35,758 nucleotides of DNA from a virus. How positions within the stretch are numbered: position 1 is the first letter of the stretch; each line of letters begins with the position of its first letter. The DNA is taken from positions 1 through 35,758 of the IMG/VR virus record IMGVR_UViG_3300021130_000009; one strand, given 5' to 3'. The notes beneath the pieces were generated by a model, which saw nothing but the letters and a program-made list of their open reading frames with translations, was not told the origin of the DNA and did no database searches. The translations under genes were made by a program, and so were the position numbers. This document shows, piece after piece, positions 1,640 to 35,302 of this stretch.

Positions 1640-1691
1640 ACGGCACCATTGCCGTACTTACAAATTTAAAGTAAACTTTAGTAAAAGTAAA
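1640..1691 (-). promoter_or_regulatory. Leftward early promoter/operator region with leader hairpin (copy B)
   Basis: Read leftward, ACTAAAG TTTA CTTTAAA (1682-1665) is an imperfect copy of the operator found perfectly at 2388-2405. On the plus strand a further TAAAG half-site at 1687-1691 gives the series TAAAG, CTTTA, TAAAG, so two dimers could bind here. The hairpin 1640-1655 (ACGGCA-N4-TGCCGT) lies 9 bases past the operator, where the leftward transcript should begin. The -35 and -10 are poor matches, so this copy may be weak or activator-dependent. The region also lies directly before the divergent repressor gene, as expected for autoregulation. Confidence 0.55.
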
Positions 1692-1719: not shown

Positions 1720-1950
1720 ATGAATGATGCTCAAATCATTGACCTATTGGGCAAACCAGCAAAAGTAGCAAAGTTATGCGGTGTAACAGTTCAAGCGGTA
1801 TGTCAATGGCGCAATAACAATGCAATTCCACACGGTCATTTAACAATAATGGCCGCGACCATTGAACGTGAAAGCCATGGATTAGTAACTAGAAAAACGT
1901 TGTTTCCAAACAACTGGTGGATTGTGTGGCCTGAATTAAAAAATATGTGA
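1720..1950 (+). CDS. Cro/YdaS-like HTH transcriptional regulator
   Basis: A 76-residue protein with one helix-turn-helix: IIDLLGKPAKVAKLCGVTVQ, then AVCQWRNNNAIPHGH. The pattern 'replicon scanning helix, G-V-T/S, A-V-xx-W, I-P' is that of Cro and YdaS-type phage regulators. There is no peptidase or dimerisation domain, so it is Cro-like rather than CI-like. AAGGAAAA precedes the ATG. It lies divergently next to the leftward operon and immediately beside the TAAAG/CTTTA operator cluster, so it is the obvious candidate to bind the three related operators in this genome; that is inference. No CI-type partner or integrase is visible, so lysogeny cannot be claimed. Confidence 0.75.
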   Translation: MNDAQIIDLLGKPAKVAKLCGVTVQAVCQWRNNNAIPHGHLTIMAATIERESHGLVTRKTLFPNNWWIVWPELKNM

Positions 1951-1987
1951 TATAGTTTTGCCTATCAAGGACTGAAACACTTGGATT

Positions 1988-2076
1988 AGGGCTTTAGGGG
2001 TGGTTTTGTGGGTTTAGGAAATGAGATTAGAGGCATTTCTTAAGCCGTTTCAGCACAAAGCTACCCCTAAAGCCCT
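1988..2076 (+). ncRNA. Long stem-loop, candidate structured RNA
   Basis: AGGGCTTTAGGGGT (1988-2001) pairs perfectly over 14 bases with 2063-2076. A second inner helix TTTGTG (2005-2010) / CACAAA (2054-2059) and a possible AAATG/CATTT helix continue inward. The downstream arm is followed by TTGTGTTTTTG, so the element could also end the repressor transcript, although the loop is long for a terminator. The whole 1951-2452 stretch has no convincing gene. Strand is assigned plus because the flanking genes read that way. Confidence 0.45.
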
Positions 2077-2092
2077 TTGTGTTTTTGTCCCT

Positions 2093-2209
2093 GTCGTTCT
2101 GATTGGGGATTCACCACCACCAGCGGTCAGAATAGAAGCGCTACTGGGGGATAAGGAATGTAATAGCGCAAATGCCGGTGGCGAAGTTAGTGCCGGTTTC
2201 CTGAACGAC
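2093..2209 (+). ncRNA. Second nested-stem element in noncoding region
   Basis: Three nested pairings can be drawn without conflict: GTCGTTC (2093-2099) with GAACGAC (2203-2209), CCACC (2117-2121) with GGTGG (2177-2181), and GCGCTA (2138-2143) with TAGCGC (2164-2169). It is more GC-rich than the surroundings and lacks a credible reading frame. It may form one RNA with the stem-loop at 1988-2076. Function unknown; covariation has not been tested. Confidence 0.35.
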
Positions 2210-2249
2210 TGACGGGTTAAGTGGCTCCGAAAAGCAAACTTATTAAGGC

Positions 2250-2381: not shown

Positions 2382-2410
2382 TTGACAACTAAAGAAAACT
2401 TTAGTAAATT
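2382..2410 (+). promoter_or_regulatory. Rightward early promoter with embedded operator (copy A)
   Basis: TTGACA (2382-2387) is a perfect -35. After 17 bases comes TAAATT (2405-2410), a fair -10. The spacer is almost exactly the 18-bp perfect inverted repeat ACTAAAGAAAACTTTAGT (2388-2405), so a bound repressor would block polymerase. The same layout with identical -10 and spacing occurs leftward at 35070-35042. This promoter should drive the block from 2453 to 5445. Confidence 0.7.
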
Positions 2411-2416
2411 ACTTAT

Positions 2417-2431
2417 ACGGTGATTGACCGT
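2417..2431 (+). promoter_or_regulatory. Leader hairpin at expected transcript start (copy A)
   Basis: ACGGT-GATTG-ACCGT begins 6 bases after the -10, so it should form at or very near the 5' end of the mRNA. The following GATAGATAAAAGGAA leads to the ribosome-binding site of the gene at 2453. Related hairpins stand at the same place in front of the genes at 34998 and 1619. A stabilising 5' stem or a protein-binding leader is plausible. Confidence 0.5.
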
Positions 2432-2452: not shown

Positions 2453-2674
2453 ATGAAAGTTACAAACATCCAATCAGTTACAAAACCTGACTACAAAGAA
2501 GAATATTTAACAATGTCAACTGGCCACGTAGCAACATTGGTTCAGTTCAATGACGGTACAGAAGAAATGCACCTTCATTCCAAAACCGGCAAACGTGTTC
2601 AAGTTGGCAACACTAGCTGGCAAGCCGCTGAACGTGCTATTTGGAATACAAACCCAACACGTAGCAAATTTTAA
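2453..2674 (+). CDS. Small hypothetical protein, first gene of rightward early operon
   Basis: A 73-residue protein that I do not recognise. It has a two-strand look (HVATLVQFNDG, EEMHLHSKTGKRVQVG) followed by a short helix (SWQAAERAIW). AAGGAAAG lies upstream of the ATG. Being the first gene behind the strong, operator-controlled promoter, it is probably made early and in quantity, which would fit a host take-over or regulatory role; no motif confirms this. Confidence 0.65.
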   Translation: MKVTNIQSVTKPDYKEEYLTMSTGHVATLVQFNDGTEEMHLHSKTGKRVQVGNTSWQAAERAIWNTNPTRSKF

Positions 2675-2865: not shown

Positions 2866-3239
2866 TGTTTGACACCTTTTGGAAACTATATCCCCGGAAG
2901 GTGGCCAAGCGCGCCGCCCAAGGGGCATTTAATCGCCTGACTAAAGACGAACAAGCCCAGGCCGTAGAAGCCATTGAACAACACGTGGCTTACTGGAAAC
3001 TTAAAGGTACTGAATCAGACTTTATCCCCCATGCAAGTACCTGGCTTAATCAGGGCCGTTGGGAAGATGAATTAGACATGACCCCAAAAGAAGTAAAGCG
3101 CCCAGCATTACCTTGGTATAGTACCGATGAATTGACTATGGCCAAAGGCCGAGAATTGGGACTAAATGCTTATGCCGGCGAATCTATGGGACAGTACCGA
3201 CAAAGAATCCAACAACACATTGGAAAGATGGCGGTATGA
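2865..3239 (+). CDS. Phage replication-type protein (short, lacks N-terminal DNA-binding domain)
   Basis: A 124-residue protein starting at ATG 2865, in TGATG overlap with the preceding stop; an in-frame TTG at 2862 is less likely. The stretch FDTFWKLYPRKVAKRAAQ near the start and FIPHASTWLNQGRWEDEL near residues 54-71 are the pattern seen at the C-terminus of many phage replication-initiation (replisome organiser) proteins. The usual N-terminal winged-helix DNA-binding domain is absent, so this is either a stand-alone loader-binding module or a relative with a different role. It lies just right of the AT-rich region that may be an origin. Moderate confidence in the family, low in the precise function. 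Confidence 0.6.
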   Translation: MFDTFWKLYPRKVAKRAAQGAFNRLTKDEQAQAVEAIEQHVAYWKLKGTESDFIPHASTWLNQGRWEDELDMTPKEVKRPALPWYSTDELTMAKGRELGLNAYAGESMGQYRQRIQQHIGKMAV

Positions 3240-3408
3240 GTGCGAAGTTAGACAACTGCTCAAATACCGTGCCCAACTTGGGCTGGTGGGTTTCAGGGCA
3301 TATTTTGAAAACAAAAGTTTTGACAACCGCAGACAAAAACTTGCTGGGGACTTTTATGACCAATGGAAAAAAGGCAATCGTGGAAACATTTCAGGACAAT
3401 GGCTATGA
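3220..3408 (+). CDS. Small phage protein of the 'CEVRQLL ... QWKKGNRG' type
   Basis: This frame contains CEVRQLLKYRAQLG near the start and FYDQWKKGNRG near the end, a spacing I know from small conserved phage proteins next to replication genes (DUF7696-like, from memory). No ATG lies near the right place; the best start is TTG at 3220, inside the end of the replication-type gene, giving 62 residues. The 3' part overlaps the sigma-like gene by 53 bases in another frame. The protein is basic and helical. The frame is probably genuine because the motif is coherent, but the start is uncertain. Confidence 0.5.
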   Translation: MERWRYECEVRQLLKYRAQLGLVGFRAYFENKSFDNRRQKLAGDFYDQWKKGNRGNISGQWL

Positions 3409-3544
3409 GCCAATGACACTTGACCAAATAGCATTAATTGAAGGTGTAAGCCATCAAAGAGTAGCTCAAATATTAAATAGCGCATTGCGTAAATTTCATA
3501 AAGCAATGTATGACAAAGGTATAAAAAAAGAGGATTTGTTATGA
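3356..3544 (+). CDS. Sigma-70 region 4-like HTH protein
   Basis: Residues 21-48, beginning TLDQIALIEG and continuing VSHQRVAQILNSALRKFHKA, match the pattern of sigma-70 region 4 ('eIa...gvS..RV.QI...AlrKlr'), the part that contacts the -35 element. I place the start at ATG 3356 because GGGGA lies six bases upstream, giving 62 residues; an upstream in-frame ATG at 3236 would add 40 residues that are the other-frame shadow of the CEVRQ gene. There is no sigma region 2, so it cannot be a full sigma factor; it may redirect host polymerase or act as an activator of late genes. The stop overlaps the next start as ATGA. Confidence 0.6.
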   Translation: MTNGKKAIVETFQDNGYEPMTLDQIALIEGVSHQRVAQILNSALRKFHKAMYDKGIKKEDLL

Positions 3545-11034: not shown

Positions 11035-11231
11035 CAACTCCAAACGTATATCTTCCCTATCCTATTCCCCAAGACCAAAATGAACTGGTAGCGGATATAA
11101 ATGCTTTAATAAGCCAACCAGGAGTTCCAACAGAACTTTATAATGAGGTTATGGCAATAGAAGATAGCCCAACAACACAGGAAGATATAAACGAAGCAGA
11201 AGCCAATTCTGACAGTATGGCGGATGAGTGA
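11031..11231 (+). CDS. Small acidic hypothetical protein
   Basis: A 66-residue, strongly acidic protein with a proline-rich start (VYLPYPIPQDQNELVADINA) and a disordered Glu/Asp/Ser end. It overlaps the preceding gene by four bases. Position just before the small terminase suggests a packaging-region accessory gene; no family recognised. Confidence 0.55.
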   Translation: MTTPNVYLPYPIPQDQNELVADINALISQPGVPTELYNEVMAIEDSPTTQEDINEAEANSDSMADE

Positions 11232-11248
11232 AGAAATCTTTATAAAAC

Positions 11249-34719: not shown

Positions 34720-34998
34720 TTATTTTGCAGTTACTTTAAGAGTAATAACTGCGGTTGTTTTTGTGTATTTAGCAATAAGTTCTGCTGGTACATTTGCTTC
34801 AGCAAATACGGCTTTATTGTCAACGGTCGCACGTTGTGAAAGGGTAACGCAAGCTTTGAACAAATTGCCTTCAATGTGGCCTTCTTGTTGCTTAAGTTCA
34901 TTTTTGATTGCATCTGCTTGTTTTTCCAAGTCAGCAATTTGGGCCATTAACATACCCAATTGGTCAACTTTGCTTAACTGAATGTCAATTGCTTTCAT
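34720..34998 (-). CDS. Coiled-coil phage protein, first gene of second leftward block
   Basis: A 92-residue protein. The first half is a coiled coil (LGMLMAQIADLEKQADAIKN), the second a small alpha/beta part (EGNLFKACVTLSQRATVDNK, ending AVITLKVTAK). I recognise the layout from small phage proteins near recombination genes, sometimes likened to the Gam nuclease inhibitor, but without proof. AAAGGAATAAATC leads into the ATG. It is directly behind the operator-controlled promoter at 35042-35070. Confidence 0.65.
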   Translation of the reverse strand: MKAIDIQLSKVDQLGMLMAQIADLEKQADAIKNELKQQEGHIEGNLFKACVTLSQRATVDNKAVFAEANVPAELIAKYTKTTAVITLKVTAK

Positions 34999-35019: not shown

Positions 35020-35070
35020 ACGGCACCGTTGCCGTATTAGTAATTTACTAAAGAAATCTTTACCATGCAA
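35020..35070 (-). promoter_or_regulatory. Leftward early promoter with operator and leader hairpin (copy C)
   Basis: Leftward, TTGCAT (35070-35065) is the -35; the operator GGTAAAG-ATTT-CTTTAGT (35064-35047) fills the spacer; TAAATT (35047-35042) is the -10 at 17 bases. ACTAAT follows, then the hairpin ACGGCA-ACGG-TGCCGT (35035-35020). Every distance equals that of copy A at 2382-2431, and -10 is identical. It should drive the block from 34998 to 33947. Confidence 0.65.
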
Positions 35071-35097
35071 CAACTTTTTTACTAGGATTTATACCTA

Positions 35098-35302
35098 GTT
35101 GCAAAAAAGCAACAAGGCCGTATTTGGCAGTTGCTATCAATGGGTCAGAAAGCCGCAAAATTACCCAATTACTGCATCCTACGTTGGCGGCTTAACGCCC
35201 TAATAGGGGTGAGGTACTTGCAATCATGTATGTGAAGCATGAAAACACTCGCTTTCCCTCATGTAAGGTGGGCTACTAGTTTCTTTACACGTTCGCCCAA
35301 TG
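35098..35302. other. Noncoding region with nested stems and a possible pseudoknot
   Basis: No credible gene lies between the exonuclease stop and the promoter. CCTAGTTGC/GCAACAAGG (one mismatch, around 35093-35116) forms a hairpin. GCAGT (35127-35131) pairs with ACTGC (35171-35175) around TGGGT (35141-35145) / ACCCA (35163-35167). AGCCGC in that loop (35151-35156) can pair with GCGGCT downstream (35187-35192), making an H-type pseudoknot. CCCT/AGGG follows at 35198-35208. From about 35210 to 35302 I see no further structure. Strand and function are open. Confidence 0.4.

Follow-up and report, generated by a model that had tools for sequence, protein, structure and literature searches.

For the operators of phage P22, we used the string ANTNAAGNNNNCTTNANT, which we take to be their consensus; it was checked against OR1–3 and OL1–3 as read from the annotated P22 record NC_002371, and as a control four sites in the annotated OR and OL regions were recovered with 0 mismatches. 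The string itself was not found in a literature search. One of these operators, OR2 (ACTAAAGATTCCTTTAGT), is located in the spacer of the P22 PR promoter (TTGACTAAAGATTCCTTTAGTAGATAAT). The Cro-like protein YdaS of CP-933P, from Escherichia coli O157:H7, has a footprinted region with palindromes whose half-site is GTTTAGTAA (PMC8630535). At the level of RNA, RppH and RNase E require 5′ ends that are single-stranded. The ompA and papA mRNAs are stabilised by stem-loops at the 5′ end (PMC3997798), as is the mRNA of T4 gene 32 by a 5′ hairpin (PMC8948821). Here, we describe a stretch of 35,758 nucleotides, positions 1 to 35,758 of the IMG/VR virus record IMGVR_UViG_3300021130_000009 (the window), which is a near-complete, circularly permuted genome of a freshwater tailed phage. 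We think it likely that a single cassette serves its three early promoters, PR, PL1, and PL2, and that it combines shut-off by Cro, a 76-residue regulator, with a protective hairpin at the 5′ end of the message.

Results

The early rightward promoter, PR (2382–2410, plus strand), consists of TTGACA at 2382–2387, a 17-bp spacer, and TAAATT at 2405–2410, with 10 of 12 matches to the consensus, and this geometry is kept in relatives. The P22-type operator in its spacer (2388–2405) is a perfect 18-bp palindrome, ACTAAAGAAAACTTTAGT, as the initial annotation of this DNA had stated, and has 0 mismatches to the P22 consensus; its last T is the first base of the −10, position 2405 being common to both. 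The second leftward promoter, PL2 (35042–35070, minus strand), has TTGCAT at 35070–35065, the same 17-bp spacer, and TAAATT at 35047–35042, and it is conserved in relatives. The operator core in its spacer, TAAAGAAATCTTTA (35049–35062), is TAAAG-N4-CTTTA, with 1 mismatch to the P22 consensus in the 18-bp frame; read on the minus strand, the operator is TAAAGATTTCTTTA. The leftward promoter PL1 (1663–1691, minus strand), which can be aligned across relatives, has TTTACT at 1691–1686, a 17-bp spacer, and TAAATT at 1668–1663. Its operator 1, TAAAGTAAACTTTA (1667–1680), also with 1 mismatch to the P22 consensus, is displaced by 3 bp toward the −10 relative to the shared design and overlaps that hexamer. 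A degenerate operator 2, TAAAGCAATATTTA (1688–1701), lies 21 bp from operator 1 and overlaps the presumed −10 of cro (CAATAT, 1693–1698; TAATAT in many relatives). The start of cro (1720–1950, plus strand), which encodes the candidate repressor of all three promoters, adjoins operator 2.

The initial annotation had described the shared design as the same to the base, which holds for the spacer length, the core repeat, and the −10; the −35 hexamers (TTGACA, TTGCAT, and TTTACT) differ, as do the outer palindrome bases. Its degenerate third copy corresponds to a real minus-strand promoter, PL1, accompanied by the degenerate second operator, but the core repeat of PL1 is itself perfect and overlaps the −10. 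The placement of the operator between −35 and −10, which had seemed unusually uniform, is not unusual, since OR2 occupies the same place in P22 PR. By sequence, then, the operators are of the classical P22 c2/Cro type, a class already known, and the attached hairpin described below is the new part.

Perfect TAAAG-N4-CTTTA repeats occur in the window at these three sites only. With at most 1 mismatch there are 8, compared with 2.6 expected, and 1 of 100 shuffles reaches 8; the full P22 consensus is matched with 0 mismatches once, compared with 0.075 expected per Markov resample. A site with 1 mismatch at 11227–11244 has no promoter and is attributed to chance. The decisive evidence for the predicted promoter–operator design is its conservation in relatives.

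A protein search of IMG/VR with the 76-residue Cro gave 80 loci, and most of those with enough flanking sequence carry PL1 together with either PR or PL2; operator, −10, and hairpin are as in the window. This search selects for cro by design, and therefore a separate scan of IMG/VR was run with the pattern TAAAGN4CTTTAGTAAATTA, using no protein or cro information. The scan returned 70 stretches, of which 64 are full cassettes. The other six (L096, L106, L112, L115, L134, and L137) lack the −35, the hairpin, and cro, and are chance hits. For 60 of the 64 cassettes, cro is on the same contig (within the stretch in 57 and elsewhere in 3), and the remaining 4 are cut off before the position of cro. 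Both the recurrence of the sites in relatives and their association with the gene for the regulator, on which the initial annotation had staked its proposal, were found. The 18 whole records scanned contain few perfect sites, almost all of them at PL2 and PR. The conserved layout is PL2, about 2.1–2.4 kb, PL1 with cro, about 0.55–1.8 kb, and PR, and further early genes are occasionally preceded by extra cassettes.

Such extra units of promoter, operator, and hairpin were seen at L128:5631, L101:11399, L047:3885, L080:6674, and L082:4012, all on the plus strand. Some of them have TAAAGT as the −10 and ACCGAA/TTCGGT as the stem, as might be expected if added genes bring the cassette with them. 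At L120:4379 (plus strand) and L125:1237 (minus strand), an operator-bearing promoter with −10 TAAAGT is followed by a conserved leader, CTTTGTTAGAYAAGCCATTGACACTATTCAGC, without the hairpin at +1. A recurrent site with one mismatch about 11–12 kb from PR (TAAAGAAAACTTTAGAA) was considered as a candidate late operator; it falls within the part of the portal gene that encodes AKENFRKMYPD, where it tracks the conservation of the protein, and we regard it as a coding coincidence.

Distant relatives, in which Cro is 42–53% identical, keep the 17-bp spacer, but their operators, which overlap the −10, combine CTTAA with TTAAG or TTTAG. Loci whose Cro has an AVCQW helix carry TAAAG/CTTTA operators, whereas the operators are TTWAG/CTTAA where the helix is AVSQW, the form also found in P22 Cro. 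The recognition helix and the operator half-site thus change together between clades. Direct recognition would predict this, but with roughly one evolutionary change between the groups, the correlation is suggestive rather than proof.

The 76-residue protein passes the Pfam profile P22_Cro (PF14549) with 32.4 bits against a gathering cut-off of 30.2, and scores 29.5 with the YdaS_toxin profile, slightly below the cut-off of 30. Its predicted structure is all helical, with a predicted local distance difference test score (pLDDT) of 87, and agrees with a helix-turn-helix (HTH) fold with middling scores. The best Foldseek matches of the model are Xfaso1, N15, and P22 Cro and YdaS, all modest (E 0.004 or weaker). 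Superposition gives Z = 5.4 over 55 residues (root-mean-square deviation, rmsd, 2.8) with P22 Cro, and Z = 5.5 over 60 residues (rmsd 3.2) with N15 Cro. We consider it unlikely that TAAAG-N4-CTTTA is read not by this Cro but by some other protein of the phage or by a transcription factor of the host. Such a reader is conceivable in that binding by Cro is a prediction here and, in P22, c2 and Cro recognise the same operators although they are different proteins. It fits poorly with the strict co-occurrence of cro in the cro-blind scan, with the extra operators directly beside cro, with the match between these operators and those of P22, whose Cro is of the same family, and with the result that no HTH_3 repressor was detected in 12 records.

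All three promoters run into a hairpin of 5–6 bp that begins 6–7 nt past the −10, at the expected first transcribed base (+1, placed from the position of the −10), a feature that the initial annotation had missed. At PR, it is ACGGT-GATTG-ACCGT (2417–2431, plus strand; −6.1 kcal/mol, z = −2.9), with conserved position and pairing. At PL2, it is ACGGCA-ACGG-TGCCGT (35020–35035, minus strand; −8.3 kcal/mol, z = −2.2), where covariation is seen, and at PL1, it is ACGGCA-ATGG-TGCCGT (1640–1655, minus strand; −8.3 kcal/mol, z = −2.65). After each hairpin comes an A-rich leader with a Shine–Dalgarno sequence. A transcript of cro, if started from the TAATAT box, would have no such hairpin. A generic promoter-plus-hairpin detector was unspecific, with 10 hits in the window against 2–9 in resamples, and no claim is based on it.

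In three groups of distinct leaders from relatives, a stem of at least 5 Watson–Crick pairs is present in 45 of 48, 33 of 33 (PL1), and 33 of 42, compared with 3.2, 2.8, and 4.2 after shuffling. Nearly all of these stems begin 5–8 nt past the −10, a conserved position near +1 such as is characteristic of stabilising stem-loops. The arms vary while the pairing is kept (ACGGCA, ACCGCA, ACGGTC, ACTAAC, ACTGCA, ATGGC, CTAGC, CTGAC, CTGGC, and TAGGC). Among 17 distinct hairpins with 6 bp and a 4-nt loop, all cells pair, which is partly by construction as the rows were picked for folding, a bias from which the stem variety and the leader counts are free. These hairpins have two-sided changes at 4 of 6 pairs and a covariation score of 0.582, compared with 0.227 when shuffled, and a second group of 14 hairpins, picked likewise, scores 0.516, compared with 0.174. 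None of 500 shuffles reaches either score, and slid registers fail. Compensatory stem changes are also present in distant relatives whose Cro is about 45% identical.

The leader hairpin is also palindromic as DNA, and operators are often found where transcription begins, so that it might act at the DNA level, either as a further operator or through a structure of its own. We judge this very unlikely, as ten different arms keep their pairing, and the G-U intermediates that occur in the stems indicate an RNA element rather than a DNA palindrome. As an RNA element, the hairpin would most likely lengthen the life of the early messages by hindering 5′-end-dependent decay through RppH and RNase E.

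An RNA hairpin might instead serve as a binding signal for a protein of the phage or of its host, comparable to nut boxB or HK022 put, through which all early operons would be antiterminated or controlled at translation. As with nutL and nutR or putL and putR, the structure is found in the leaders of the early transcripts, in this phage all three, and most of the 4-nt loops in the clade of the window fit A-N-R-N. In contrast to lambda nut and HK022 put, however, the hairpin begins at +1, and there is no conserved recognition sequence, the letters of stem and loop differing even among promoters of one genome. The 260 nt that follow each of the three −10 boxes contain no boxA-like sequence (the best match has 3 of 8 mismatches), and intrinsic terminator-like sites are few in the early region (3, compared with 7.1 in shuffles). 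We therefore regard a protein-bound signal as improbable, and prefer 5′-end protection. A role for the hairpins of PR and PL1 as attenuators that work through an intrinsic terminator was rejected, as there is none directly downstream.

The initial annotation had proposed a single-regulator switch with the 76-residue protein as the candidate. The regulator is supported by the conserved sites, the co-occurrence with cro, the identity of the operators with the P22 type, and the joint change of helix and half-site; the switch is not, as no prophage repressor or integrase was detected. Tyrosine and serine recombinases (PF00589 and PF00239) were found in 0 of 12 records, and a prophage repressor with an HTH_3 and/or S24 domain in 0 of 12, while the same families were detected in 10 to 14 of 14 control genomes. 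Hence, an early shut-off by Cro alone is likelier than a lysis–lysogeny switch: the phage would be virulent, its early promoters would be repressed as Cro accumulates, and a prophage state appears unlikely. Cro is classically half of such a switch, and distant relatives of this Cro are encoded by phages of Acinetobacter, a number of which (several) were described from strains that carry prophages. That these phages are temperate, with the operators serving a switch whose prophage repressor went unrecognised, is nevertheless quite unlikely given the missing recombinases, HTH_3 repressors, and S24 peptidases, and a host search across about 85,000 species genomes gave one weak, partial match to Cro.

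The rightward early operon begins with a gene for a 73-residue protein (2453–2674, plus strand; Shine–Dalgarno AAGGA at 2441–2445), for which no matching family was found. The first gene of the PL2 operon (34720–34998, minus strand) encodes 92 residues with distant, weak matches to RecE-like exonuclease and Mu Gam-like proteins (E 2e-4 and 0.04). After the replication-protein gene, a 102-residue protein (3236–3541, plus strand) has a sigma70 region-4-like HTH (PF04545, 26.0 bits; cut-off 24.1) and is a candidate late-gene regulator.

Between cro and PR, at 2096–2217 (plus strand), lies a Betaproteobacteria-1 RNA (Rfam RF02932, 92.9 bits). Of 20 relatives scanned, 11 have a member of this family at the corresponding position, and so does L169. 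Its presence suggests either that the host is a betaproteobacterium or that the RNA family is carried by phages; a literature search found no paper on this RNA. Directly downstream of cro (1960–2095, plus strand) is a long GC-rich inverted repeat, GGGCTTTAGGGGTGG ... CTACCCCTAAAGCCC, possibly another structured RNA, and relatives L153–L157 have a different structured element in its place. Upstream of PL2, a non-coding stretch of about 220 bp (35080–35300) contains several GC-rich inverted repeats and may be a second structured RNA. The ends of the window (1/35758) adjoin in relatives, and their junction falls within a gene for a PD-(D/E)XK nuclease; contig L005 bridges the two ends, between which 11 bp are absent in the window.

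Discussion

The proposed cassette has the order sigma70-type −35, P22-type operator in the spacer, −10, hairpin at +1, Shine–Dalgarno sequence, and gene. We infer Cro binding, the start sites, the order of events, and the effect of the hairpin as follows. After infection, the host polymerase would fire PL1, PL2, and PR at once. Cro, whose own promoter adjoins PL1, would build up and bind the TAAAG-N4-CTTTA operators. Because these sites overlap the promoter hexamers or fall between them, bound Cro would block the polymerase. The early operons would then be shut off, and probably cro too, as the operators beside cro suggest autoregulation. Meanwhile, the hairpin would sequester each early mRNA's 5′ end within a stem and slow 5′-end-dependent decay, so that with longer-lived messages a brief burst of transcription may suffice.

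This proposal draws sequence-level support from the anatomy of the cassette, its conservation, the identity of the operators, the association with Cro, and the covariation of the hairpins. Several points weigh against it. Many of the loci are close relatives, and the site counts are not independent. The correlation between helix and operator appears to represent about one evolutionary change between groups. The presumed cro promoter has no good −35. Covariation is in part expected of a loosely specific DNA palindrome as well, although the stem differs between promoters of one genome. Finally, protection of the 5′ end presupposes decay of the RppH/RNase E type in the host of the phage.

More broadly, the chances seem to us even that an operator within the promoter joined to a protective 5′ hairpin is a general unit of early expression in a large group of uncultured freshwater phages, and is copied before further early genes. 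Selection would keep the pairing and the +1 position while the sequence drifts, with the factor setting the timing and the stem the lifetime of the message. The early control circuit of a widespread group of uncultured phages is thereby put in testable form, with a Cro for which no prophage-repressor partner was detected, a defined operator, and at least three target promoters. The covarying hairpin at +1 suggests that phages build protection of the mRNA 5′ end into early promoters as a standard part, and if so, host RNA decay is linked to phage timing. Clades that differ in Cro helix, operator, and stem are a natural set for the study of operator specificity and 5′-hairpin function.

What is known of P22 explains the main claim of the initial annotation; the addition here is a cassette with a built-in, covarying hairpin at +1. 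The phage resembles the P22 immunity region in the operator class, the Pfam family of Cro, the operator in the PR spacer, and the joint control of early leftward and rightward promoters. It differs in having one operator each at PR and PL2, where P22 has three, in the location of cro, next to PL1 and not within the PR operon, and in that no c2 was found. Furthermore, the start of the P22 PR transcript, judged by eye, has no comparable hairpin. YdaS of CP-933P is also Cro-like, and its half-site is near CTTTAGTAA of this phage; its partners, however, are the CI-like PaaR2 and the CII-like YdaT, neither of which was identified here. The stabilising stem-loops of ompA and papA in E. coli and of T4 gene 32 belong to single genes, whereas in this phage group one hairpin design appears to be fixed in a repressor-controlled cassette at no fewer than three early operons.
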